Below are positions 997 through 18,176 of a stretch of DNA of 64,000 bases, one piece after another (positions within the stretch are counted from its first letter, which is position 1; every line of letters starts with the position of its first letter). The notes below the pieces were generated by a model. The model was given only the letters and a program-made list of their open reading frames with translations, did no database searches and had not been told where the DNA came from. The stretch is from Anaerolinea thermolimosa (GTDB taxonomy: Bacteria; Chloroflexota; Anaerolineae; Anaerolineales; Anaerolineaceae): positions 1,971,480-2,035,479 of the forward strand of contig NZ_DF967965.1 in assembly GCF_001050195.2 (NCBI RefSeq), given 5' to 3'. The translations under genes and the position numbers were made by a program.

Positions 997-2103
997 CTAG
1001 ACCCCAACATCGCGTCGAGTACGCGCCTTGCCACGCCGACGCATCCATTCCAATACACGGGGAAGAATTTGAGTATACATCCGGTAAGAAAGTGGACGGG
1101 CGGTATAATCCCAGGCCCCAAGGGTCCGCACCACCCTGGCGCCTAATCCTTCTTTGAAACGAAATACCCCCCACATAGAGTCGCTTTCATTAAAAACATC
1201 CGGCGCCCCCCATAAATCATAGGATGAGGCTCCCTTCGCACAGGCCAGACGCATGGCTTCCCATTGTAAAAGGTAATTCGGCATCTTTTCCCGGTGCAGA
1301 TCGCGTGACATGCCATAAAGATACCAGGCTCTGCCGGCAAACACGAATAGCACCAGCCCTGCTACCGCCTCGCCCGATACCTCTGCGATCAATGGAAAAC
1401 ACATTCCCCTCCGGGAAAAAGTATTCCAGACCATCCGATAATATTCAAGAGGTCGGATGACAAACCCATCTCGCACAGCGGTTTCGGCATACATCCGATA
1501 AAGCAAGTCGAAGTCATCCTCCCCTCCCAACCGCACGGTTACTCCCTTGCGCTGCGCAAGCCGCAGGTTATACCGGGCCTTGGGTTTCATCCTTCCCAGC
1601 CAGTCCGCCTCGTCTCCTAATAAATCCAACACAGCAGTGTTTCGAAACTGAATTTGTTCCTTCGAGAATATCCAGCCCCGCTCGTTCAACTCATTCCGAA
1701 GCGCTGCACCAGCCTCAACTTCAACGGCACCTTCAGTACCGGGTACCCCATACCCTAAAGGTACCTCTGGATCGATCTTCAGGAAAATTACTCCCCGTTG
1801 CCGCGCCAGAGCTTCAAGAGTATTGATTACTTTCTGCCTGTGGCCAGGGTGCGTCCAGTCCAGCAAAGGGCCACGTGGCACATACAGCACGCTCCAACCT
1901 CCAGCCATTCCCGGAAACCGCACCCGCCTGGAGAGGATCATCGCCGCGGCAAATATTTCTCCCCGTTCATTTCTCCAAACCTGCGGACAGGCTTCCCACC
2001 CGTATTTTCCTTTAAGCTCAGCCCATTCCCGTGTTTGCAAGATGTTCGCACCCGGGAGTTTAGCAATCATTTCGTTCCACGAATTGAGATCCACCGATAG
2101 CAA
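997..2103 (-). CDS. FemAB-family aminoacyltransferase (paralog 1)
   Basis: A 368-residue FemA/FemB/FemX-like protein (GNAT-related fold). The family attaches amino acids from aminoacyl-tRNA to the lipid II peptide, or works on related envelope substrates. Recognisable blocks are LQTREWAELKGKYGW near the N-terminus, YVPRGPLLDW, MKPKARYNLRLAQRKGV in the middle, and near the C-terminus LLQWEAMRLACAKGASSYDLWG followed by WGVFRFKEGLG. The start is a TTG with AGGAG eight bases upstream; a GTG three codons on is possible. It lies just downstream of a second FemAB gene on the same strand and shares the same block order, so the two look like a tandem duplication. The substrate is unknown; context suggests peptidoglycan cross-bridge or surface polymer modification. 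Confidence 0.85.
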   Translation of the reverse strand: MLSVDLNSWNEMIAKLPGANILQTREWAELKGKYGWEACPQVWRNERGEIFAAAMILSRRVRFPGMAGGWSVLYVPRGPLLDWTHPGHRQKVINTLEALARQRGVIFLKIDPEVPLGYGVPGTEGAVEVEAGAALRNELNERGWIFSKEQIQFRNTAVLDLLGDEADWLGRMKPKARYNLRLAQRKGVTVRLGGEDDFDLLYRMYAETAVRDGFVIRPLEYYRMVWNTFSRRGMCFPLIAEVSGEAVAGLVLFVFAGRAWYLYGMSRDLHREKMPNYLLQWEAMRLACAKGASSYDLWGAPDVFNESDSMWGVFRFKEGLGARVVRTLGAWDYTARPLSYRMYTQILPRVLEWMRRRGKARTRRDVGV

Positions 2104-2114
2104 AGGCCGCGCTC

Positions 2115-3104
2115 CTATTCCATGCTTCGCTTACGCGCCCACCAGCGATACAACCAGAAAAATGGGGCGAGCAGGGGTTTCTCATAGGTCGCATGAGCAC
2201 GCTTTAAAACCCCTCCAAAACCGCGTTTAAAGCGGTAAACTCCCCACAAACCATCCTTTCGCCGCTCGAAATCCGCTTCCAGAACGGCCTCATCTTCATC
2301 AGGCACCCCCCAGAGGTCATAAGAAGTACACCCTCTCGCCGATGCCCACAACATCGCCTTCCATTGTAAAAGATAGGTGGGCATTCGGTTACGTTCCTCT
2401 TCAGTTGAAGCCCCGTAAAAATACCAGGCCCGGCTCCCCCTGGTGAATACCATCAACCCGGCCAGCGGCCGTTCCTCGTATTCCGCCATGAGTAACTCAA
2501 CCGCCTGCTGGGGATATAATAAGTCATACGCCTTTTGATAATACTCCAGGCTATGCACACCGAACCCGTCGCGTTTCCCGGTTTGTAGCATCATCCGGTA
2601 AAAGGTCTCAACATCTGAAGAAGGCCTTACTGTAACCCCTTTCTTCTCAGCCAGGCGAATGTTATACCGGGTCTTCTGTTTCATCCGTTCGAGCCATGCA
2701 TCCGGAGCGCCCTGCAGGGACACTACCAGTGTGCGGCGGGGTTGTACGGAGATGCCATCACAACGGAAACCGGTAAGCGCTCCTTCAGGGATGCTCTCTT
2801 CTTCCCAGCCATCCGGTTCAACTTTTAACAGGATGGCATGCTTTTCGCGGCATACTTTTTCGACCTCTGGCCACAGGGAGTCCCATGCCGGTCCAACCGG
2901 TCCTTTGGGAATATAGGCCAGTGTCAACCCCCCGGGCAACTGACGAAAGAGAACCTGTGCTCCAGTTACCCCAACGCATATCCGCTCCACAGTCCAGCCA
3001 AACGAACGCTTTAATTCGCCCCAGGCCGCACTCTGCAACACGTGCGTATCTGGATAAGCCCTTAAAAATGACTCCCATTCCGAAGCCGAAAGTCGCGCCA
3101 TCAT
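2115..3104 (-). CDS. FemAB-family aminoacyltransferase (paralog 2)
   Basis: A 329-residue FemAB-like protein parallel to the neighbour downstream: LQSAAWGELKRSFGW, YIPKGPVGPAW, MKQKTRYNIRLAEKKGV, then LLQWKAMLWASARGCTSYDLWG and WGVYRFKRGFGG. Compared with paralog 1 it has an insertion between YDLWG and WGVYRFK (about 17 residues of acidic and basic character). Its start codon overlaps the stop of the CapD-like gene by four bases (ATGA), so the two are translationally coupled and the gene belongs to the polysaccharide operon. Expected role: transfer of an amino acid onto the peptidoglycan precursor stem peptide or a similar acceptor at the cytoplasmic membrane face. Substrate specificity cannot be read from sequence. 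Confidence 0.85.
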   Translation of the reverse strand: MMARLSASEWESFLRAYPDTHVLQSAAWGELKRSFGWTVERICVGVTGAQVLFRQLPGGLTLAYIPKGPVGPAWDSLWPEVEKVCREKHAILLKVEPDGWEEESIPEGALTGFRCDGISVQPRRTLVVSLQGAPDAWLERMKQKTRYNIRLAEKKGVTVRPSSDVETFYRMMLQTGKRDGFGVHSLEYYQKAYDLLYPQQAVELLMAEYEERPLAGLMVFTRGSRAWYFYGASTEEERNRMPTYLLQWKAMLWASARGCTSYDLWGVPDEDEAVLEADFERRKDGLWGVYRFKRGFGGVLKRAHATYEKPLLAPFFWLYRWWARKRSME

Positions 3105-8105: not shown

Positions 8106-9119
8106 CTAATAGTGAAGATCTGATTGTCCTCCCACACGTTTCCGGAAAATCCAGTATGACCAGGCCTGATAAGCCAGTACAATGGGTACGAATATCAGAG
8201 CCACAATAGACATAACCCGCAGTGTATATGGGCCAGAGGAAGCGTTATAAATGGTCAGGCTATACGCGTTGTCAAGGCTCGAAACAAGCACCCGCGGGTA
8301 GAGCACCATGAAAATCGTCGTCACGGCAAAGACAATCGCCAGAGACGTCAGGAAAAAAGCCCAACCGCTTCGCCTGGTATAGATCAAGTACCCTGCCGCT
8401 AGCAGAGCAACCCCTGCTCCTACTGGTATTGGCCCGGGGTTAATTCCCAATTGTCGCAGGATATCGGTCAGAAAATACATCCCCACCGTATACAATACCA
8501 TCGTGACCACCGCTGCTGGCCAGGCTTTCCAGGCGGCATCCTCGGCTGCTTTACGCAGAGCGCCATCGGTCTTCAGGCTCAAGAAAATCGCTCCATGTAA
8601 GGTGAACCCTGCAACCGCCACCAAACCACCTAAAAGAGCAAACGGGTTGAGCAAGTTCCAGAATCCACCCACATACGTCATCGTTTCGTCGATGGGCACC
8701 CCGCGGATGAAATTGGTGAAGGCTACTCCAAACAGGAATGCTGGAATCAGGCTTCCAAAGAAGATAGCCCAATCCCACAGGCTGCGCCATCGCGGATGAT
8801 CATCCTTGCTCCGAAATTCGAAAGCCACTCCCCGAACGATCAGCGCCAGCAAAATCAAGAACAGAGGCAGGTAAAAGCCGCTGAACAGCGTTGCATACCA
8901 GTGTGGGAAAGCCGCAAAAGTAGCCCCACCGGCGGTGATTAACCATACTTCATTGCCATCCCAGTGAGGGCCAATGGTATTGATCATCATCCGTCGTGTT
9001 TGGTCATCCTTCCCGAGCACCGGTAAAAGAATGCCCACCCCCATATCAAACCCCTCCAGCACAAAGAAACCGATATACAACACCGCAATTAAAATAAACC
9101 ACAATGTATTCAGATCCAT
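8106..9119 (-). CDS. cydB: Cytochrome bd ubiquinol oxidase subunit II
   Basis: A 337-residue multi-pass membrane protein with CydB hallmarks: LEGFDMGVGILLP in helix 1, IGPHWDGNEVWLITAGGA after it, then FPHWYATLFSGFYLPLFLIL and RGVAFEFRSKD. The family forms the second subunit of the cytochrome bd quinol oxidase, which reduces oxygen to water without pumping protons and has high oxygen affinity. It follows cydA by nine bases. I see no cydX-like small subunit gene and no cydDC heme exporter nearby. The subunit assignment is certain. The quinone used (mena- or ubiquinol) is not shown by sequence; menaquinol would fit the presumed phylum. Confidence 0.97.
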   Translation of the reverse strand: MDLNTLWFILIAVLYIGFFVLEGFDMGVGILLPVLGKDDQTRRMMINTIGPHWDGNEVWLITAGGATFAAFPHWYATLFSGFYLPLFLILLALIVRGVAFEFRSKDDHPRWRSLWDWAIFFGSLIPAFLFGVAFTNFIRGVPIDETMTYVGGFWNLLNPFALLGGLVAVAGFTLHGAIFLSLKTDGALRKAAEDAAWKAWPAAVVTMVLYTVGMYFLTDILRQLGINPGPIPVGAGVALLAAGYLIYTRRSGWAFFLTSLAIVFAVTTIFMVLYPRVLVSSLDNAYSLTIYNASSGPYTLRVMSIVALIFVPIVLAYQAWSYWIFRKRVGGQSDLHY

Positions 9120-9128
9120 GTTGGCCTC

Positions 9129-10508
9129 CTACGCCGCCGTAGATTCAGAAATGGTTGAAGCTGGTTCATTCGATCCGTCACCCGGGCCAGCTTTGGCGTA
9201 TTTCACCAGCAGGTAAACATCGGCCACCATCAGTGACCCGTAGACGAGGGTAAAAGTGATGAGTGTGGTCAGCACCATCCCTGCCGTAAGGTTGGGCGAG
9301 AAAGCATCCCGGGTTTGCATCAACCCAAACACCACCCATGGTTGCCGGCCCATCTCGGTTAAAATCCAGCCGGTCGTATTGGCCACATAAGGAAGCCCGA
9401 TTGCCAGGGGGAGATACCGGGTAAACTTAATAGAGTCGAGCGGCCTATTCCGAATGATTAAATACAATGCCAACAACATGATCCCCAGCATCAGGAACCC
9501 CGCCCCTACCATGATCCGAAACGTCCAATAGGTAGTGAACACTGAGGGCACATAGTACCCGGGCCCATACTTTTGCACATACTCTTCCTGTAAATCACGA
9601 ATCCCCTTAACCAAACCACTGGGACGGTTATAGGAGAGAATGCTCAATAAATAAGGGATTCGGATAGCGAAGCGATCCCGCAGGTTTTCCTGGTCACCCC
9701 AGGTGAACAACGAGAAAGACGCCGGATCCTCAGATTCCCACAACGCCTCAACCGAAGCCATCTTCATTGGCTGAACCTGTACCATTTGTTGGGCCTGACT
9801 ATGGCCGACGAAGATCACCAGTACAATGGAAAGCGAACCAAAAACCACAGCAAGGTTGAAAGATCGTTGGAAGAATTCCACATTTTTCTTTCGCAACAGA
9901 TGATACACGCTAATCCCAAACACAAAAAACGCCCCGGTGACAAAGCCTGAAAAAACAGTGTGCGGGAACTGCGTCCACACATATCGGTTAGCCACCAGCG
10001 CCCAGAAATCCGTCATCACGGCCCGGCCATTCTCCAGAGCATATCCGACCGGATGCTGCATGAATGAGTTGGCTATCAGAATCCATAGAGCAGAAATATT
10101 CGCCCCGATTGCCACCAACCAGATACATGCCAGGTGCAATTTCTTGGAAATTTTATCCCAGCCAAAGACCCACACCCCCAGGAAGGTTGACTCCAGGAAA
10201 AACGCCAGCAGCGCTTCGATTGCCAGGGGAGCACCGAAGATATCCCCCACATATCGCGAATATTCCGACCAGTTCATCCCGAACTGGAATTCCTGGACAA
10301 TACCGGTCACCACCCCCATAGCAAAGTTAATCAGGAAAAGGGTGCCCCAGAACTTTGCCATGGATCGATACAGTGTTTGCCCGGTTGAGACATAAATGGT
10401 CTCCATGATGGCAACCAGCACAGATAACCCCAGCGTCAGGGGTACGAAGAAAAAATGATATACCGATGTAATGGCAAACTGCCATTGCGAAAGTGTGAGA
10501 ACGTCCAT
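9129..10508 (-). CDS. cydA: Cytochrome bd ubiquinol oxidase subunit I
   Basis: A 459-residue subunit I. His18 in the SVYHFFFVPLTLGLS block is the usual axial heme b595 ligand. The second conserved His lies in QFPHTVFSGFVTG (heme b558 ligand region), and the quinol-loop end has the invariant GRQPW in ILTEMGRQPWVVFG. The length and compact loop between helices 6 and 7 fit the short Q-loop class of CydA rather than the longer E. coli type. First gene of the cydAB operon. Upstream (10509-10664) are the divergent promoters towards the SlyD-like gene. Function: oxygen reduction and quinol oxidation at the cytoplasmic membrane. Confidence 0.97.
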   Translation of the reverse strand: MDVLTLSQWQFAITSVYHFFFVPLTLGLSVLVAIMETIYVSTGQTLYRSMAKFWGTLFLINFAMGVVTGIVQEFQFGMNWSEYSRYVGDIFGAPLAIEALLAFFLESTFLGVWVFGWDKISKKLHLACIWLVAIGANISALWILIANSFMQHPVGYALENGRAVMTDFWALVANRYVWTQFPHTVFSGFVTGAFFVFGISVYHLLRKKNVEFFQRSFNLAVVFGSLSIVLVIFVGHSQAQQMVQVQPMKMASVEALWESEDPASFSLFTWGDQENLRDRFAIRIPYLLSILSYNRPSGLVKGIRDLQEEYVQKYGPGYYVPSVFTTYWTFRIMVGAGFLMLGIMLLALYLIIRNRPLDSIKFTRYLPLAIGLPYVANTTGWILTEMGRQPWVVFGLMQTRDAFSPNLTAGMVLTTLITFTLVYGSLMVADVYLLVKYAKAGPGDGSNEPASTISESTAA

Positions 10509-10648
10509 TGAAGGCTCCTGGTGAAAAGATAAAACAGCTTTGGAGTATTTCGCCTGACGATGTCAATTTTATTACAAGTCTAAAATTACCCTTCTGCCCG
10601 ATCTATTGTTTTTTATCACCTGAAAAAACGAAGATTGTCATGATAGTA

Positions 10649-10657
10649 TGATATAAT
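10649..10657 (+). promoter_or_regulatory. Extended -10 promoter for the SlyD-like gene
   Basis: TGATATAAT is a perfect extended -10 element; no good -35 is seen 17 bases upstream. Transcription would start near 10664. This rules out the in-frame TTG at 10665 as the real start and favours the ATG at 10704. Confidence 0.6.
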
Positions 10658-10703
10658 CCCTTCGTTGTTCGGATTGAGTAATAAGTTAAGGAAAGTAAAA
10701 TCA

Positions 10704-11270
10704 ATGGATAAAAGCACAAAGCCCACAGTTGTGGCAGACGACGTGGTAGTCAGCATGGACTACACCCTGACGGTAGACGGCGAAGTGGTCGACACCACTC
10801 AGGGAGACGAACCTATTCAGTTCATCCAGGGACATGATAACATCATTCCCGGCCTGGAACGCGAGCTTTACGGTATGGCTGTAGGCCATTCGAAAAAGGT
10901 TCGCGTGGCTGCCCGGGATGCGTATGGTGAAATTGACCCCGATGCGATCATCGAAGTGCCCCGCGACGAAATCCCCAAAGAGATTCCCCTTAAACTTGGC
11001 GTTGAATTAACCGTCACCGATGAGAACGGGGATTTGATGGAAGCCAGAATTGTATCCCTCAGCAAGGATACGGTTCAACTTGATTTCAACCATCCTCTCG
11101 CAGGCAAGGATCTCGAATTTGACGTCACCATCACCGATCTGCGCCAGGCCAATGAAGAAGAACTGGAGCATGGCCATGTTCACTCCGATGACGAGGAAGA
11201 GGACATGGACGATGAGGAATTTGAATTCTTCATCGATGAAGAAGACGAAGACGATTCTCCTGAGAAATAA
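10704..11270 (+). CDS. SlyD-like FKBP-type peptidyl-prolyl cis-trans isomerase
   Basis: A 188-residue FKBP with the SlyD layout. The FKBP strands are VSMDYTLTVDGEVVD and PIQFIQGHDNIIPGLERELY. The inserted IF chaperone domain follows, and the fold closes with FNHPLAGKDLEFDVTI, typical of SlyD. The C-terminal tail is strongly acidic (DDEEEDMDDEEFEFF) after a short HGHVHSD, where E. coli SlyD has a metal-binding His/Cys tail. The start is set at the ATG at 10704, which has AAGGAAAG upstream; the longer reading from TTG 10665 would begin at the predicted transcription start. The enzyme catalyses proline isomerisation and assists folding in the cytoplasm. It is monocistronic, followed by a long hairpin. 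Confidence 0.93.
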   Translation: MDKSTKPTVVADDVVVSMDYTLTVDGEVVDTTQGDEPIQFIQGHDNIIPGLERELYGMAVGHSKKVRVAARDAYGEIDPDAIIEVPRDEIPKEIPLKLGVELTVTDENGDLMEARIVSLSKDTVQLDFNHPLAGKDLEFDVTITDLRQANEEELEHGHVHSDDEEEDMDDEEFEFFIDEEDEDDSPEK

Positions 11271-11294
11271 ACAGGTTCGTTCCTCCGTTTAACC

Positions 11295-11336
11295 TAACTG
11301 GAGAGCTCAGCCCCTGATGGCTGAGCTCTCCAGTTA
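11295..11336. terminator. Bidirectional hairpin terminator between convergent genes
   Basis: An 18-bp perfect stem: arms 11295-11312 and 11319-11336, loop cctgat. It lies between the SlyD-like gene (plus) and the MFS gene (minus), which converge here. The T tract is weak on both sides. Confidence 0.8.
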
Positions 11337-11365
11337 ACGGTTTACTTCGAGTAAATAACAGCCAT

Positions 11366-12604
11366 CTACGAGGGCTTCCACGCAGCAAAGAGCACCGCCG
11401 CCAGCAGAGCCATACTCGCTCCAAACAGGAAGGGCGCCGAGGCACCGAAACCCTGCCACCCCCCTACACCCTGCCACAAAATGCCAGCGATGAGGGAAGC
11501 AGGAAAATCTAAAATTCCCAGAACGGCATTATAGGTGCCGTACGCCGTACCGCGCAAATTCTCCGGCACCAGATCGGCCACCATGGCCTTGGTCGTTCCA
11601 TACGTCAGGGCATAATACACCCCGTAGGCAAGGTAAAACACAACAATATGCCAGGCATTGCGTGCCAGGGCAAAACCCAGGTAAATGATCCCATAAACCA
11701 ACCAACCACCGATAATCATCCGGCGGCGCCCGATCTTATCCGACAGCCCCCCCGCTGGAGCTGAGAGTACTGCATAGATCAGGTTAAACGCCGCCAGCAT
11801 AGCCAGAATCCCAACCACATTTAAACCACGCTCCTGGGCCCGCAATGTCAGGAAAGCATCCGATGAATTACCGAGGTCAAAAATCCCCACGATGATCATA
11901 AAGATCATGAAGGGTTTCCCAAGTGACCGGAAAGCAAACCGGGGCATTTCATGACCATCAGCCACAGGCACATCCTTTGCCCCAAGGATTAATGCCAGAA
12001 CGGCCAAAAACCCGGGCACCAGGCTGATCAGCACGACCGTACGGAAGGTACTCGCCCCCAATTCAACCCGGCTCGACTGAGCCATCCATACAATCACCAA
12101 TGAAATTAACAAACCCAGCATCGCTCCGGCGGTATCTGCCGCCCGATGGAGACCAAAAGCAAGACCCCGTACCTCAGATTTCACCGAATCCGCTACCAGG
12201 GCGTCTCGGGGCGCAGTGCGAACCCCCTTACCCACCCGATCGATCCAGCGAACCGCGGCCACCGTTGCCCATGAGTTGGCAAAATAAAAAAAGGGTTTAG
12301 CCAGAGCCGATAATCCATACCCGGCCACCGCAATCCATTTGCGGCTTCTCAGCTTATCTGATAACCACCCAGAAAAAAGCTTCAACAGACTGGATGTGGC
12401 TTCCGCAATTCCCTCAATGATTCCGATAATATTGGTCTTTACCCCCAGAACATTGGAGAGAAACAACGGAAGAATGTTGATGACCATTTCACTGGAAATA
12501 TCCATTAAGAAACTGGTCACACTCACAGCCCAAACATTACGTGGCAAATTACGCACCCCTCCCAATAGTCCACGGGAGGGAACTTTTTTCGCCATCTCGT
12601 CCAT
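11366..12604 (-). CDS. Major facilitator superfamily transporter
   Basis: A 412-residue MFS protein with about twelve hydrophobic helices. The N-half carries FLMDISSEMVINILPLFLS and GWLSDKLRSRKW (the helix 2-3 loop signature), then RVGKGVRTAPRDALVADSV. The C-half has the second loop signature GLSDKIGRRRM. The RVGKG-RTAPRDAL block is common in a poorly characterised MFS group annotated as general efflux or sugar-phosphate-like permeases; no substrate can be named. The start is placed at the ATG at 12604, preceded by GGAGG with five bases of spacing. A TTG at 12661 would extend the frame by 19 polar residues but has poorer support. It faces away from the DUF4395 operon across a 347-base gap. 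Confidence 0.88.
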   Translation of the reverse strand: MDEMAKKVPSRGLLGGVRNLPRNVWAVSVTSFLMDISSEMVINILPLFLSNVLGVKTNIIGIIEGIAEATSSLLKLFSGWLSDKLRSRKWIAVAGYGLSALAKPFFYFANSWATVAAVRWIDRVGKGVRTAPRDALVADSVKSEVRGLAFGLHRAADTAGAMLGLLISLVIVWMAQSSRVELGASTFRTVVLISLVPGFLAVLALILGAKDVPVADGHEMPRFAFRSLGKPFMIFMIIVGIFDLGNSSDAFLTLRAQERGLNVVGILAMLAAFNLIYAVLSAPAGGLSDKIGRRRMIIGGWLVYGIIYLGFALARNAWHIVVFYLAYGVYYALTYGTTKAMVADLVPENLRGTAYGTYNAVLGILDFPASLIAGILWQGVGGWQGFGASAPFLFGASMALLAAVLFAAWKPS

Positions 12605-12721
12605 GCCATCCTCCGCGCGAAAAGAATAAAAATTATTGTACTCCCCTTCCTGGAAGTTCAATAGAGCTTACCTACCGCTATTATCTCTTCTTCCACTACA
12701 AAGAAAAACCGGCAGAAAACC

Positions 12722-12749
12722 TTGACAACAACACAAACAAGAGTATTAT
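12722..12749 (+). promoter_or_regulatory. Sigma-70-like promoter driving the structured leader
   Basis: TTGACA (12722-12727), 16-base spacer, TATTAT (12744-12749). This is the only strong promoter in the 12605-12951 gap and points to the DUF4395 operon. Transcription would start near 12756, giving a leader of about 195 bases before the first start codon. Confidence 0.7.
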
Positions 12750-12755
12750 TATCCA

Positions 12756-12951
12756 AATACTATGGATCAAGTCATGGAACGAATTCCTTGCATGTGTTGT
12801 TTCCGGCGGAGACTGAAACCGCCGCCGGTATAAAAATCCGACGATTGCTCAAAACGGGCGGTTGCAGTCTCTGCACATTGCGGAACAGCAACTGCCCGTT
12901 TTTTTTTCGTAGAAGTGCATTAGCCGGTTTTTCACCCAACGGAGGATCTGT
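12756..12951 (+). ncRNA. Candidate attenuator or riboswitch-like leader of the DUF4395-thioredoxin operon
   Basis: The leader contains a 7-bp hairpin (12803-12809 with 12822-12828) and a 15-pair terminator stem (12851-12865 with 12888-12902, one G-T pair). The 22-base terminator loop holds a stretch (12865-12874) that can pair over ten positions with 12806-12815, which form part of the first hairpin. After the terminator comes GGAGG at 12941-12945 and the ATG at 12952. No plus-strand gene lies upstream, so the terminator belongs to this leader or to a stand-alone small RNA. I do not recognise a known riboswitch class. The pairings were checked by hand; the regulatory role is inferred. Confidence 0.6.
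12851..12907 (+). terminator. Intrinsic terminator inside the leader
   Basis: Stem aaaacgggcggttgc with gcaactgcccgtttt, followed directly by further Ts (nine in a row, 12899-12907). It sits 45 bases before the DUF4395 start codon, so full termination would silence the operon. Confidence 0.85.
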
Positions 12952-13443
12952 ATGACTTCTCTGGTTCCCATGGATCATTCTTCAATTAAGACCAATCAGG
13001 CACTGGTCATGCTCCTTCCAACCCTCGCGTTTATCTTCGACTGGCCCTGGCTGGTCGCCTTAACATCTGCGGTTATGTTGATTGGCTCATTTTTTCTGAA
13101 GCGACCTGGTTTCAGCTTCTTATATACAAAGCTGCTTCAACCTGTACATCTTGTAAAACCCAACGTACTCCTCGACCATCGAGAGCCTCACCTCTTTGCA
13201 CAGGGAATGGGCGGAGTATGCCTGGCGCTCTCTGCCCTGGGTTTGGCATTTGGGCTGGTATGGCCGGGCTGGTTGTTAAGCTGGATCGTGGTAGGACTGG
13301 CAGCCTTAAACTTTTTTGGCGGGTTTTGCGCCGGTTGTGCCATTTATTACTGGCTGAACCGTTTGCACGTCCCCGGTTTTACTCAGTCTCCACCCCCTGA
13401 TACTCCCCCAGGTATGCGCCCCAGGAGTTCTGCCCATGAATGA
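12952..13443 (+). CDS. DUF4395 membrane protein
   Basis: A 163-residue protein with about four hydrophobic helices. The DUF4395 signs are the N-terminal DHSSIKTNQAL block, PGFSFLYTKLLQPVHLVKPN with the conserved Pro and Asn, and a last helix ending GGFCAGCAIYYWLNR, where two cysteines (CAGC) sit at the membrane edge. Family members are often found beside thioredoxin- or rhodanese-like proteins and are thought to act in thiol or sulfur chemistry, but no reaction is proven. It has GGAGG seven bases before the ATG. It overlaps the following thioredoxin gene by eight bases, so the two are coupled. Expression is probably governed by the terminator-bearing leader upstream. Confidence 0.85.
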   Translation: MTSLVPMDHSSIKTNQALVMLLPTLAFIFDWPWLVALTSAVMLIGSFFLKRPGFSFLYTKLLQPVHLVKPNVLLDHREPHLFAQGMGGVCLALSALGLAFGLVWPGWLLSWIVVGLAALNFFGGFCAGCAIYYWLNRLHVPGFTQSPPPDTPPGMRPRSSAHE

Positions 13444-13846
13444 ACCCCTTTTAACGCGCCTGCTCTGGAGTCTGGTGATCATCGCAGGAGCTTATCTTTT
13501 GTTGCGCCTAATCCGGTGGTGGATGCTTAACCGCGTTCAGAACACCACTCATCATTCCCCCGCCATTGAACCAGGTCGCCCTACCGTGATTTACTTCACC
13601 ACTCCAGATTGTGCCCCCTGCAAAACAGTTCAACGACCTGCCCTGCAAAAAGCCTTAAGCCAGCTGGGGGAAGCATGTCAACTCATTGAGGTGAATGCCT
13701 ACGAGAAGCCCGATCTGGCGCGGCAGTGGGGTGTGTTGAGCATTCCCACCACCTTTATCCTCGATTCCACCGGTAAGCCCCGGCACGTTAATTACGGAGT
13801 AACACCGGCCGAAAAGCTGGTTCGACAACTCAAAGCACTTTTATGA
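13436..13846 (+). CDS. Membrane-anchored thioredoxin-family protein
   Basis: A 136-residue protein: an N-terminal hydrophobic helix (residues ~8-25), then a thioredoxin domain with VIYFTTPDCAPCKTVQRPAL. The CAPC redox pair replaces the common CGPC. The cis-Pro loop is WGVLSIPTTFILDSTG, and YGVTPAEKLVRQL ends the fold. It should reduce or oxidise dithiols at the membrane, facing either side depending on the topology of the anchor. It overlaps the DUF4395 gene, whose CAGC motif might be its partner (inference). The single operon promoter and leader lie at 12722-12951. Confidence 0.9.
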   Translation: MNEPLLTRLLWSLVIIAGAYLLLRLIRWWMLNRVQNTTHHSPAIEPGRPTVIYFTTPDCAPCKTVQRPALQKALSQLGEACQLIEVNAYEKPDLARQWGVLSIPTTFILDSTGKPRHVNYGVTPAEKLVRQLKALL

Positions 13847-13902
13847 AGCCCTTCCAGGTAAAAGCATACAACTTTCCAGGTACGCCTCCGTATACTTCTA
13901 TA

Positions 13903-13934
13903 GATCATCCACCATTCTGATTTACTGGATGATC
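13903..13934 (+). promoter_or_regulatory. 5' UTR hairpin before the small glycine-rich membrane protein
   Basis: gatcatcca (13903-13911) pairs with tggatgatc (13926-13934), a 9-bp perfect stem ending two bases before the ribosome binding site GGAGG (13937-13941). A TATACT -10 box at 13891-13896 would start transcription at about the first base of the stem. It may stabilise the mRNA or gate translation. Confidence 0.5.
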
Positions 13935-13946
13935 CTGGAGGAAACC

Positions 13947-14129
13947 ATGGGTTTGCTTGAATTTATCTTCAATTTGGTGGGTGGCATTATCGGCCTGGCC
14001 TTTGGACTGGTAGGCGGAGTACTGGGATTGGTTGTGGGCATTATCGGGCTGGTCATTGCCCTGGTGATCGGGGTACTTTTACTGATTCTGCTCGGCCCCA
14101 TCATCCTGCTTCTGGTGCTCATTTTTTAA
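13947..14129 (+). CDS. Small glycine-rich hydrophobic membrane protein
   Basis: A 60-residue protein that is nearly all membrane: FNLVGGIIGLAFGLVGGVL, then a run of Val, Ile, Leu with Gly every three or four residues, and a very hydrophobic C-terminus. The GxxxG-like spacing suggests helices that pack tightly or oligomerise. The start is the ATG at 13947, with GGAGG five bases upstream; the ATG at 13929 lies ahead of that site and is unlikely. No family is recognised. It has its own candidate promoter and a 5' hairpin, and ends six bases before the convergent GNAT gene. It could be a stress-type membrane peptide, but nothing in the sequence proves this. Confidence 0.7.
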   Translation: MGLLEFIFNLVGGIIGLAFGLVGGVLGLVVGIIGLVIALVIGVLLLILLGPIILLLVLIF

Positions 14130-14135
14130 GTAAAC

Positions 14136-14924
14136 TCATTCGCCCAGCAATCGAATGACCCACCAGATATGGTTACCTGAAAAGCCACATCGCCGATAAA
14201 GGTGCTCGGCATCCGATGGGTTATCAGCCCCTCCCGATACCGTCACCAGTTGTGCTTTTCCTTGAATCAACATCAGGAGGTAACTGATTAACGCTCGAGC
14301 TACCCCCCTGCCACGATATTCCGGGATCACCTGGATCCATTCCAGAGAAGCCTCCCTTCTCACAGGGTCAAAATCGGCAATTCCCAAACCCGCGGGTTGA
14401 TCGGTAAGCCGATCAATGACCCATACCCACAACTCAGGCGTGAACACTGGCTGCCGGGTCCATCGCAGCACTTCCTCATACGATGGATGAAGATGAGGAT
14501 AACACCGGCCAATCACCTCGGTAGCCAGGAGAACATCTGCGGGGACTCGAACCGGTGCAAAGGCAAACTCCCCGGGTAAGGGATAAACCGGAAAAGATTC
14601 CCCCAGCTGGAGGCGAAAATATCTTTGAATGGAATATTGAGAGGAACGCGGAAATTGAGCCGCATACTGGCTGTACACCACCGCGAATTTAGGAGACTTC
14701 CAAAATGCTTCAGGGGCATCGGGTCGCCATTCCCCTGTGCGGTCCCAGTACACCTGATACCCGGATTCATTCCAGGCTTCCAGGTGATCTACTGAGCCAT
14801 CTCCCCTCACCCGGCAGGAATAAAACACACCGCCGAGCATGGACTCTGCTTTCCAAAAAGGAACGAGAAGCACCCTGCATGGATCGTAGAAATAGACCTT
14901 TTCCAGCGCTTTTAAAAATTCCAT
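14136..14924 (-). CDS. GNAT-family N-acetyltransferase
   Basis: A 262-residue protein. The C-terminal third is a GNAT domain: LWVWVIDRLTDQPAGLGIAD, then LEWIQVIPEYRGRGVARALI with the acetyl-CoA pyrophosphate loop (Q/RxxGxG/A as RGRGVA), and a final YRRCGFSGNHIWWVIR. The N-terminal half (to about residue 150) is not a standard acetyltransferase and may be a second, degenerate GNAT-like lobe. It transfers an acetyl group from acetyl-CoA to an unknown amine. It converges with the small membrane protein and is transcribed alone. Confidence 0.85.
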   Translation of the reverse strand: MEFLKALEKVYFYDPCRVLLVPFWKAESMLGGVFYSCRVRGDGSVDHLEAWNESGYQVYWDRTGEWRPDAPEAFWKSPKFAVVYSQYAAQFPRSSQYSIQRYFRLQLGESFPVYPLPGEFAFAPVRVPADVLLATEVIGRCYPHLHPSYEEVLRWTRQPVFTPELWVWVIDRLTDQPAGLGIADFDPVRREASLEWIQVIPEYRGRGVARALISYLLMLIQGKAQLVTVSGGADNPSDAEHLYRRCGFSGNHIWWVIRLLGE

Positions 14925-15047
14925 CCTCTGAATCTCAAAACGAACCGTTGTATCCTGGGTTAATCATATCGCAGGAGTTGCCAGAATGGAAAACTTCCCG
15001 GTAACCCTGCTATGTTACAATCAATGATCATCTGCATGGAGGAATTT

Positions 15048-15608
15048 ATGCCACAGGAACGCACCCGTAAAATCGTCGTCACTGGCATCATGGGAGCTAT
15101 TGCCATCTTTTTAGGATTAACCCGCTGGGGATTTATTCCCTGGGTTGCGGGAGCCTCACTCACGATCATGCACGTACCCGTTATTATCGGTGCCATTCTC
15201 GAGGGACCGGTTGTAGGCTTGTTGATTGGTCTGATTTTCGGGCTATTCAGCCTGATTCAGGCCGCCGTTGCTCCCAACGGCCCGGTGGACATCTGGTTTA
15301 CCAACCCGTTACTCTCTGTTTTACCTCGCCTTTTTATCGGACCGCTGGCCTGGCTTGTATGGCGTGCATTGCGACAATGGCCGGTCATTGGGTTAATCAT
15401 TGCCGGGATCGCCGGCAGCCTGACCAACACCGTCCTTGTACTTGGAATGATAGGCGTACTGGGGTTTCTCCCGTGGGCAGCACTTGCGCCGATCGTGGTT
15501 GCCAACGGTCTCCCTGAGGCCGGTTTATCTGCTCTGCTCGTTCTGATCGTTGTGGCCGCCTGGATGCGCATTCGGGTTGGGGCAAAACGGGGAGCCTCTC
15601 TGGAGTAA
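15048..15608 (+). CDS. ECF transporter substrate-binding (S) component
   Basis: A 186-residue integral membrane protein with about six helices in the S-component pattern: TGIMGAIAIFLGLTRWGFIP, LTIMHVPVIIGAILEGPVVG and GLIFGLFSLIQAA, with an RLFIGPLAWLVWR block later. The LTRWGFIP and HVPVIIGAI phrases are typical of the uncharacterised COG4684-like S subunits. It captures a vitamin or similar small molecule and works with the EcfT and EcfAA proteins encoded convergently at 15617-18176. The substrate is not readable from sequence. The start is the ATG at 15048 with GGAGG five bases before; the longer frame from 15012 lacks support. It ends eight bases from the convergent ecfT stop. Confidence 0.9.
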   Translation: MPQERTRKIVVTGIMGAIAIFLGLTRWGFIPWVAGASLTIMHVPVIIGAILEGPVVGLLIGLIFGLFSLIQAAVAPNGPVDIWFTNPLLSVLPRLFIGPLAWLVWRALRQWPVIGLIIAGIAGSLTNTVLVLGMIGVLGFLPWAALAPIVVANGLPEAGLSALLVLIVVAAWMRIRVGAKRGASLE

Positions 15609-15616
15609 AACCGCAC

Positions 15617-16438
15617 CTAAAAAACGAGGATAGCCGCCCCGGTAAGGAACGAGATCCCCAGGAGTAACCCATCCACCGCTTTTAACCGCAGTTCCACCAG
15701 TGATGTGCGTTGCGTGGAGCTCCCATACGCTCGTGCGTCCATGGCAAGTGCCATATTTTCTGCCCTGTGAAGGCTGGAGAGGAAAAGTGGGACAACCACC
15801 GGGATAACCTGCCGCACCCTGGCGATGATATTGCCGGGGCGGCTGTCCCAATCTGCCCCTCGTGATGCCTGCGACTTGGCAATTCGCTCAGCGGTTTGGG
15901 CCAGCATAGGTAAAAAGCGCAGTGTAACCTGAACCATCATGACCAGATCCTGAGCAGGAAACCCCATTTTCGCCAATGGTTGAAACATAATATTTAAACC
16001 CTGGGTCATTTCAGCGGTAGAGATGGTATAGGTTGCCAGCCCAATTGCCAGAATCAATCCAGTAAAGCGAATAAGCAACTTCGCACCGGCCGCTAAATCT
16101 GAAGGGGTAATCCTTACCGGTCCAATTACGGCCAGAATCGACTCGTCAGGCGAACTGACATTTAAGAATACCTGAAGAATGGCTAACAAAAACAAAAAAG
16201 GCAAGGGCGGCAACAACCCCCGAAAGGCAAAGCGGTAAGGAATTTTACCTACCCGTAAACCCACGAGCACCACAGCACAACCGATCAGCAAGCCAACCAG
16301 ACTGCGGCTGAAGGTCAGGGCCAGCACAATTACTGTAAACGCCACCATCCGCGCGCGGGGATCCAACCGGTGTAAAAAAGAACCCACCGGCAGGTATTGC
16401 CCGAAAGGTATCGAGCGTAAAAACTCAAACTGGCTCAC
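15617..16438 (-). CDS. ecfT: ECF transporter transmembrane (T) component
   Basis: A 273-residue EcfT/CbiQ-family protein with several N-terminal helices after HRLDPRARMVAFTVIVLAL. The two short Ala-Arg-Gly coupling motifs that touch the ATPase are QASRGAD and MALAMDARAYG. It transmits ATP-driven movement from the EcfA ATPases to the S component. I choose the GTG at 16438, which has GGAGG six bases before it and lies inside the end of the ATPase gene (14-base overlap). A TTG at 16462 would extend the frame but has no ribosome site. With EcfAA upstream and the S component convergent, the transporter is complete. Confidence 0.92.
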   Translation of the reverse strand: MSQFEFLRSIPFGQYLPVGSFLHRLDPRARMVAFTVIVLALTFSRSLVGLLIGCAVVLVGLRVGKIPYRFAFRGLLPPLPFLFLLAILQVFLNVSSPDESILAVIGPVRITPSDLAAGAKLLIRFTGLILAIGLATYTISTAEMTQGLNIMFQPLAKMGFPAQDLVMMVQVTLRFLPMLAQTAERIAKSQASRGADWDSRPGNIIARVRQVIPVVVPLFLSSLHRAENMALAMDARAYGSSTQRTSLVELRLKAVDGLLLGISFLTGAAILVF

Positions 16439-18176
16439 CCTGAACCTCCACACACCTCTCAAGATGATCCATCAGCATTTCTGCGGTAACGACACGGGAA
16501 GGTACTCCCCACCCCAGGGTACGAAGGCGTGCCGCCACCAGAGCCGCGACCGGGGGCTCCAGCCCAAGCTCACGAACCGCCTCAAATTGCCAGAAGACCT
16601 CTGCCGCCAAACCTTGAAGCGCATTTCGCCCTTTACGAAAGGCGGTCAGATCATGAGCGAGCATGGCCACATCTTCCATTTGATGGGATGAAAGGACGAT
16701 TTCCATCCCTTCACTGACCATCCTGCGTAACGTTAATAAAATTTCTTTTCGAGAGCGCGGATCCAGCCCGGCTGTCGGCTCATCCAGCAAGAGAAAACGT
16801 GGTTTAATCGCCAGAATGCTTGCCAGAGCAACCTTCCGTTTTTCTCCACCGCTCAGGGTATCGGTGAAGCGGTCTTTAAAGGCCAAAAAATCCAATCCCA
16901 CCTGCTCCATTGCCCAGCGGACTCGGCTCGCAAGGGGCTCATCACACCCTAATTGACGTGGCCCATAGGCAATTTCATCTCCCACAAATTGCTCAAAAAA
17001 CTGGCTTTCCGGGTTTTGCATCACCAATCCGGCCAGGCGAACCACCTGCCGGGTAGACACAGTCGGATCGTCCAGCTGAAAGGGCCCCACCCGCACTTTT
17101 CCCTCCTGCGGGCGGAGTATTCCATTGAGATGCTGGAGCAGGGTCGACTTGCCAGAACCAGTGACTCCCACCAGCGCGTGCGCTCTTCCTGCGGCAACCT
17201 GAAGACTGGCATTCTGGAGAGCCTGGTGTGCCAGTGGAGTGCCGAGCATATACGTATGATTCAACCCCTGCACTTCGATTACCCACTCTCTCCCCTGTTG
17301 GTCGGTACCGCCATCTACTCTATGTTCTGGTGGTTCACAAGGGCGTTGTGGTGATGGAAGACTTCCAAGAAGCTCCTCCACGGTGAGTAGATCCTCAGGC
17401 AGGTGAGGGAACAAACGCCGCAACCGTCCCCCAAGCTCCACCACCGGAGGGGGTTCCAGCCCCCAGTCTTCCAGAGATTGCCTGGTAAAGAGTTCTCGTG
17501 GTGCACCATCGAACACCACACTCCCCTCACTCAATACCACCGCCCGGTCGGCAAGTGCCGCCTCTTCCATGTTATGGGTCACAAAAAGAACGGCCATACC
17601 GGAGGCCCGCAATTCTGCCATCAACGCGAGCGCCATTCTCCTTCCTGCCGGGTCAAGCATGGTGGTGGCCTCATCAAACACCACCACACGCGGACGCATG
17701 GCCAACACCCCTGCCAGTGCCAGGCGCTGCATCTGACCGGAAGAGAGCATGTGAGGCGGACGATGACGGTGGGCTTCCAACCCCACGGCTTCAATGGCTG
17801 CATCCACGCGCTGGCGAATTTCCGACGGAGGTAGCCCCAGGTTCTCAGGTCCAAAGGCTACATCTTCCTCCACCGTAGTGGCCACAATTTGATCTTCCGG
17901 GTGTTGAAATACCATACCCACCCGCTGCCGGATTATTCCATGATAGGAACGATCCCGTGTATCCAGATTAGTGACCAGCACCCGCCCCAGAGTGGGTAAA
18001 AGCAGGCCATTTAAATGGCGCGCCAGCGTGGTCTTTCCGGAACCATTCGCCCCCAGGATAACCGCAAATTCGCCCTCATGGAATTGTAAAGTAATATCCT
18101 TCAGTGCCGGATGAGGATCCTTTGGGTCTCCAGTATATGAAAAAGTAACCTTATCCAGTTTAATGAGTGCAGTCAT
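16425..18176 (-). CDS. ECF transporter energy-coupling ATPase, fused EcfA-EcfA'
   Basis: A 583-residue protein made of two ABC ATPase domains in tandem. Domain 1 has Walker A GANGSGKTTLARHL and Walker B VVVFDEATTMLDP, but a signature of MLSSGQMQRLALAG (SSGQ in place of SGGQ). Domain 2 has GVTGSGKSTLLQHL, LLLDEPTAGLDPRSR and a normal TLSGGEKRKVALAS. A proline- and glutamate-rich linker joins them around residues 270-300. Separate EcfA1 and EcfA2 genes are usual in Firmicutes; a single fused chain is seen in some archaea and other phyla. It hydrolyses ATP to drive vitamin uptake, with EcfT translated from its end. The less standard first signature suggests unequal nucleotide sites. Confidence 0.94.
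   Translation of the reverse strand: MTALIKLDKVTFSYTGDPKDPHPALKDITLQFHEGEFAVILGANGSGKTTLARHLNGLLLPTLGRVLVTNLDTRDRSYHGIIRQRVGMVFQHPEDQIVATTVEEDVAFGPENLGLPPSEIRQRVDAAIEAVGLEAHRHRPPHMLSSGQMQRLALAGVLAMRPRVVVFDEATTMLDPAGRRMALALMAELRASGMAVLFVTHNMEEAALADRAVVLSEGSVVFDGAPRELFTRQSLEDWGLEPPPVVELGGRLRRLFPHLPEDLLTVEELLGSLPSPQRPCEPPEHRVDGGTDQQGREWVIEVQGLNHTYMLGTPLAHQALQNASLQVAAGRAHALVGVTGSGKSTLLQHLNGILRPQEGKVRVGPFQLDDPTVSTRQVVRLAGLVMQNPESQFFEQFVGDEIAYGPRQLGCDEPLASRVRWAMEQVGLDFLAFKDRFTDTLSGGEKRKVALASILAIKPRFLLLDEPTAGLDPRSRKEILLTLRRMVSEGMEIVLSSHQMEDVAMLAHDLTAFRKGRNALQGLAAEVFWQFEAVRELGLEPPVAALVAARLRTLGWGVPSRVVTAEMLMDHLERCVEVQGEPV

Follow-up and report, generated by a model that had tools for sequence, protein, structure and literature searches.

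A probable ribosome-mediated attenuator with a Cys-codon leader peptide upstream of a DUF4395–thioredoxin operon in Anaerolinea thermolimosa

The leader of a two-gene operon of Anaerolinea thermolimosa (Chloroflexota, class Anaerolineae), encoding a DUF4395 membrane protein and a thioredoxin-like protein, is very probably a transcription attenuator of the ribosome-mediated (leader-peptide) type, with charged tRNA-Cys as the signal sensed. The operon lies in a stretch of 64,000 nt of contig NZ_DF967965.1, hereafter the window. This reading is drawn from sequence: the elements of such a switch are present in the leader, its helices are mutually exclusive, like leaders occur in relatives with antiterminator strands matched within each locus, and like leaders precede cysK-cysE and CysK-first clusters that contain DUF4395.

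The leader ORF and its competing helices

A first-pass annotation of this DNA had reported a promoter here with no plus-strand gene upstream. The predicted sigma-70-type promoter (12722–12749, plus strand) is indeed present, with TTGACA at 12722–12727, a spacer of 16 nt and TATTAT at 12744–12749, and the upstream neighbour is a divergent MFS transporter gene on the minus strand. The promoter matches the consensus at 11 of 12 positions and ranks first of nine promoter-like sites in 9000–17000, a count that is not above chance (7.1 expected).

Absent from that annotation, and present in the sequence, is a short ORF at 12762–12833 (plus strand), encoding MDQVMERIPCMCCFRRRLKPPPV and ending in TAA at 12831–12833, which is read as a leader ORF by reference to the Cys-x-Cys leaders of relatives. 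No Shine-Dalgarno sequence precedes its ATG at 12762, which is 12 nt downstream of the -10 hexamer. The ORF would be near-leaderless, but only with transcription from the predicted promoter; a second in-frame ATG is possible at 12774. The clustered codons for one amino acid typical of attenuators are found as TGC ATG TGT TGT (Cys-Met-Cys-Cys; 12789–12800, plus strand), directly 5' of the first hairpin. Four leader peptides compared with NCBIfam gave no family, and no second copy of the leader DNA was found in the window's genome.

The 7-bp hairpin, the 15-pair terminator and the nine Ts described by the first-pass annotation were all located. Hairpin 1 (regions 1:2; 12803–12828, plus strand) pairs CCGGCGG (12803–12809) with CCGCCGG (12822–12828) and overlaps the 3' end of the leader ORF. 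The intrinsic terminator (regions 3:4; 12851–12907, plus strand) has a stem of 15 pairs, one of them G-U, between 12851–12865 and 12888–12902, and a run of nine Ts at 12899–12907, with 44 bases between this run and the ATG at 12952. An automatic terminator scan of the region did not list the hairpin 12851–12902, probably because its loop exceeds the 3–8 nt limit of the scan. The fold of 12756–12912 has an energy of -60.2 kcal/mol, compared with -40.5 (sd 3.8) for dinucleotide shuffles, none of 200 being as good (z -5.24).

The complementarity of ten bases noticed earlier between 12806–12815 and 12865–12874 (10 pairs, one G-U) proved to be part of a longer helix, which continues after an A·G mismatch with 12817–12823 and 12857–12863. 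The resulting candidate antiterminator joins region 2 (12806–12823, plus strand) to region 3 (12857–12874, plus strand) by 17 pairs, and region 3 overlaps the 5' arm and the loop of the terminator. All the pairs named in the three helices are standard pairs. The duplex of regions 2 and 3 is calculated at -36.8 kcal/mol, compared with -23.5 in shuffles, of which 1 in 300 was as good. Regions 1:2, 2:3 and 3:4 compete, the antiterminator excluding both hairpin 1 and the terminator, with bases 12857–12865 used by the antiterminator and terminator alike. The alternative fold anticipated by the annotation is this antiterminator, and in each relative its strands fit one another, as described below.

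Downstream, a Shine-Dalgarno sequence GGAGG (12941–12945, plus strand) precedes the DUF4395 gene (12952–13443, plus strand; 163 aa, CAGC motif; PF14340, E 1.7e-26). The thioredoxin-like gene (13436–13846, plus strand; 136 aa, CAPC motif, hydrophobic N-terminus; PF00085, E 2.7e-11) overlaps it by 8 nt. On the 3' side of the operon, 13944–14129 contains an ORF of 61 codons, very hydrophobic and rich in Gly, Val and Leu, with no Pfam match.

Leaders and antiterminators at DUF4395 loci of relatives

DUF4395 genes were searched for in three overlapping sets of genomes, comprising 61 relatives, 396 members of the class and 147 members of the family, with the window's own genome among them. The family search gave 17 matches, of which 13 (at least 100 bits) were used; the four left out were three distant matches (26.7–28.9 bits) and a further fragment of one gene (41.9 bits). 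Within 350 nt upstream, 8 of the 13 loci carry a short ORF that encodes C-x-C or CC, compared with 2.0 expected from dinucleotide shuffles (P 9e-5). Seven of these were accepted as convincing Cys-x-Cys leaders (the window, L003, L004, L005, L006, L009 and L101). The eighth match, at L008, was discounted, as it sits further upstream and is probably due to chance.

The other six family loci have no convincing C-x-C leader. At L015 and L104, no C-x-C or CC ORF was matched in the 350 nt upstream of DUF4395. L102, a sister of L006, keeps the attenuator layout with one Cys codon (MKNFQKQMKNIYLCKPRR; 1995–2139, minus strand) compared with two in L006, and is the exception among relatives to the clustering of Cys codons; its leader may be an attenuator in decay, or the sequence may contain an error. 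L103 and L105, which belong to one genus, have no Cys leader at DUF4395. At both, a tRNA-Cys (GCA) gene lies directly upstream (L103, 1386–1457, plus strand; L105, 1917–1990, minus strand), and a tRNA-Cys gene in the place of a leader peptide is an independent link of DUF4395 to cysteine.

A wider scan covered the 330 nt upstream of 99 DUF4395 matches, two of which have less than 100 nt of upstream sequence. A Cys ORF was found at 18 of the 39 loci L002–L040, 15 of which were accepted by eye (not L008, L020 and L025), and at 8 of the 60 loci L041–L100, from which L043 and perhaps L091 were accepted. Most of these 60 have a further ORF a short way 5' of DUF4395, which is therefore unlikely to be the first gene at those loci. 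Outside the window's family (L021, L024, L034, L035, L038, L043 and L127–L145), many leader peptides end in Arg-Gly-Arg or Arg-Gly-Ser before the stop codon. The G-rich antiterminator strand, and not the peptide itself, seems to account for these ends.

For pairing tests, 29 leaders were selected by us from the DUF4395 and CysK-cluster scan matches. In 20 of the 29, the duplex of regions 2 and 3 outdid 285 or more of 300 shuffles, a count that keeps three leaders in which the automatic finder misplaced the terminator (L003, L017 and L127) and two in which the strand taken reaches into the 3' arm (L006 and L102). A MAFFT alignment of the window group (A1) was too poor for column covariation, and a strand-swap test was used instead. 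In the eight loci of this group, own strands paired at -30.8 kcal/mol, compared with -22.8 for strands of relatives (p 5e-5, with permutations that take the loci as independent, some being close sisters); the own partner ranked first in four, second in two and fourth in two. By this test the long-range pairing passes the check in relatives that the first-pass annotation had set for it. A -10-like hexamer lies 7–16 nt 5' of the leader ATG in all eight.

The same test, again with loci taken as independent, was applied to three further groups. For 15 aligned leaders ending in Arg-Gly-x (the RGx group), none of 20,000 permutations was as good, with the own partner ranking from 1 to 12, and for six cysK leaders p was 0.014. 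In the f53 group (n = 4) the own pairing was not better (p 0.58). A column-pair scan of the RGx alignment (5' columns 41–75) gave the antiterminator helix, columns 48–56 with 134–142, as the longest paired run. The 14-pair RGx structure has a covariation score of 0.265, compared with 0.166 when shuffled (0/500), and 74.3% of its cells are paired, compared with 66.2% in letter shuffles and 40–48% when the structure is slid, a control that is biased since the structure was chosen on that very alignment. Two of the five measures, pairs changed on both sides (43/500) and pair types (139/500), were not beyond shuffles.

These pairings bear on an explanation modelled on a proposal for mycobacteria, in which the Cys leader peptide would exert its effect via Rho or on translation, the hairpin being an ordinary constitutive terminator or an RNA-stability element. 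The near-leaderless Cys leaders do resemble the mycobacterial ones. However, the antiterminator overlaps the 5' arm of the terminator with strands matched within each locus, and the T run stops 44 nt before the gene; we consider this explanation improbable and favour transcription attenuation.

Like leaders at cysK and CysK-first clusters

Upstream of cysK in the window's own genome lie MKLVNFGVLRSIACMCPWRGPVTLPR and a terminator. Of seven cysK matches above the family cut-off, the pair in the window's genome has one and the same upstream sequence and was counted once. A C-x-C leader precedes cysK in the window's genome and in five relatives, that is in 6/6 compared with 1.1 expected (P 2e-5), and cysE follows cysK in all six genomes. 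The cysK-cysE region of the window's genome occurs twice on one contig (G000:C6:43356–44826 and 99607–101077), about 56 kb apart and with an identical leader, which reflects either true duplication or an artefact of assembly. On the opposite strand, some 200 bases past the cysK leader of this genome, lies a c-di-GMP-II-GAG riboswitch (L150, 2862–2960, plus strand; 54.2 bits, cut-off 40). The leader pattern, which does not fit the window's own leader, was found at five places in this genome, namely the two cysK copies and three read as chance, and a reversed-pattern control gave two.

DUF4395 also occurs in clusters with cysteine-synthesis genes. The cluster at L010 encodes, by Pfam, a PALP enzyme, a JAB protein, a thioredoxin, a ThiS-like protein and ThiF, among which we take CysK/CysM, Mec and CysO to be represented; in the other clusters CysK, Mec and CysO were assigned by eye. 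Upstream stretches were taken from 20 clusters, hand-picked rather than random. L016 and L043 recur among them as the two stretches that begin with DUF4395, and of the remaining 18, 13 had a CysK motif that could be located. A C-x-C leader was found at 12 of these 13 CysK-first clusters elsewhere in the class, compared with 2.2 expected, and none of 100,000 simulations was as high; the match at L138 is weak. At the thirteenth, L141, MRQHCRCMRRE lies just beyond the scanned span. At L144 a Cys leader lies 5' of a Mec-like ORF, and in the stretches L133, L134, L140 and L142 no acceptable leader was found. The clusters suggest that DUF4395 may contribute to thiol or sulfur supply during the synthesis of cysteine.

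The spread of such leaders has limits. Among stand-alone cysK genes there was no enrichment in a sample of 100 class genomes (5 of the 30 best loci, the window's own included, compared with 4.1 expected) or in a phylum sample (4/28 compared with 2.65 expected, L148 and L150 being omitted as already counted), and a Cys leader as a general feature of cysK was rejected. The gene start of L215 in these samples is unconfirmed, and the matches at L187, L188 and L201 look real by eye. Membership of cysS in the regulon is unsupported: none of five loci was convincing, four having no such ORF and the fifth being doubtful.

The leaders at cysK also bear on what the first-pass annotation had left as a choice between an attenuator, a riboswitch and a redox-sensing leader. 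The attenuator part stands. In a metabolite-binding or redox-sensing riboswitch the terminator would be the expression platform and the small ORF would be due to chance, as the strong structure and the alternative fold might suggest. The Rfam covariance search proposed by the annotation, run with the Rfam 15 models including riboswitches and T-box, gave no match at gathering score in the window, and below that score the leader had only three weak, implausible matches (E 0.67–8.4). Across families the peptides keep Cys-x-Cys while the intervening RNA differs widely with no conserved aptamer core seen, and a like leader also precedes cysK. These results and the Cys-codon leader ORF make a riboswitch or redox-sensing RNA very improbable. 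The annotation's guess of a thiol- or sulfur-related signal was right in kind; the sensor is probably a translated leader peptide containing Cys codons. A plain unregulated terminator, with the leader ORF and the pairing due to chance, is hardly credible given the leader enrichment in three sets and the swap test, even though chance C-x-C ORFs occur in about 10–14% of such regions.

Proposed mechanism and relation to known systems

In the proposed attenuator, transcription would start a few bases 5' of the leader ATG, and a ribosome translating the leader would trail the polymerase. With ample Cys-tRNA, the ribosome would reach the stop codon (12831–12833) and cover part of region 2; the terminator would then form and no operon mRNA would be made. 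When Cys-tRNA is short, the ribosome would stall at the Cys codons (12789–12800) and block hairpin 1. Region 2 could then pair with region 3 once this is transcribed, occupying the 5' arm of the terminator and allowing read-through into DUF4395 and thioredoxin. Without a ribosome, hairpin 1 would form first. We infer this start site, translation of the leader, the stalling, the direction of the response, and cysteine, rather than another thiol signal, as the cue.

The scheme was compared with ribosome-mask folding, in which footprints were assumed and the RNA was made up to 12880, before the 3' arm of the terminator. The antiterminator had a probability of 0.95 with the mask on the first Cys codon and 0.36 with the mask at the stop codon. 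Two results count against the model: a mask on the third Cys codon gave only 0.20, and the antiterminator was also preferred (0.95) with no ribosome. By these probabilities the likely inducer is a leading ribosome held up on the first Cys codons, and the likely repressor one that has arrived at the stop codon. In the full-length RNA at equilibrium the terminator was favoured under every mask (P 0.97–0.98), and the switch must therefore be kinetic, decided during transcription. The switch of the trp attenuator is likewise kinetic.

Attenuators of the trp/his type comprise a leader ORF with regulatory codons, the hairpin 1:2, the antiterminator 2:3 and the intrinsic terminator 3:4. The present leader has the same parts, but differs in its Cys codons, its predicted near-leaderless start, the DUF4395–thioredoxin genes controlled and its occurrence in Chloroflexota. 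T-box riboswitches of cysteine genes respond to tRNA charging too; unlike in these, sensing here would need translation, and Rfam gave no T-box match.

Work by Canestrari in 2020 reportedly dealt with polycysteine leaderless sORFs of mycobacteria. It is cited on these sORFs in the available portions of PMC13236596 and PMC9094748, the former terming the system translation attenuation, and the accessible text of PMC4633059 (Shell 2015) describes leaderless Cys-rich ORFs in mycobacteria. The available part of PMC1262725 mentions trp attenuators of Actinobacteria, and Cys leader peptides in the same group with no conserved terminator hairpin. Like the mycobacterial sORFs, the present ORF is short and, by its predicted promoter, near-leaderless, with Cys codons clustered upstream of genes linked to sulfur. 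The present leader has an antiterminator and an intrinsic terminator, in contrast to the lack of a conserved terminator hairpin reported there, and it precedes other genes in another phylum. The uORFC-8-2 motif, as far as the available text of PMC8632094 goes, combines Cys codons in tandem with a terminator stem and its U run, is a proposed ribosome-mediated attenuator and is reported exclusively before cysS of Rhodobacterales; the uORF with tandem Cys codons and the terminator stem are alike, whereas the gene here is DUF4395, not cysS. No description of a Cys leader peptide in Chloroflexota was found in the literature searched, which covers part of the published work, and the accessible text of PMC2965389 contains no occurrence of 'chloroflex'. 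The kind of switch is already known; what appears to be new is the phylum, together with the operon and the regulon, and Cys leader-peptide attenuation with an intrinsic terminator would thereby be extended to Chloroflexota.

More tentatively, and at a strength just short of probable, a cysteine regulon controlled by leader-peptide attenuation may operate in much of the class, its Cys-x-Cys peptides being near-leaderless and its antiterminators evolving fast. DUF4395 and thioredoxin would belong to this regulon and provide, at the membrane, a step of thiol or sulfur supply to the CysO/Mec cysteine route. Cysteine shortage is proposed as the regulatory signal for DUF4395, a membrane family without an assigned function. 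Its ties to cysteine come by three routes: the leader like that of cysK, the clusters with CysK, Mec and CysO, and the tRNA-Cys gene upstream in one genus. The more than 30 candidate leaders provide material for a family model.

An AlphaFold2 model of the DUF4395 protein is mainly helical (mean pLDDT 94) and has no match in the PDB at E 0.001 or better; on the strength of this model, the fold is possibly an unsolved one. The available text of PMC10937449 includes a DUF4395 protein in its list of proteins restricted to thermophilic Anaerolineaceae.
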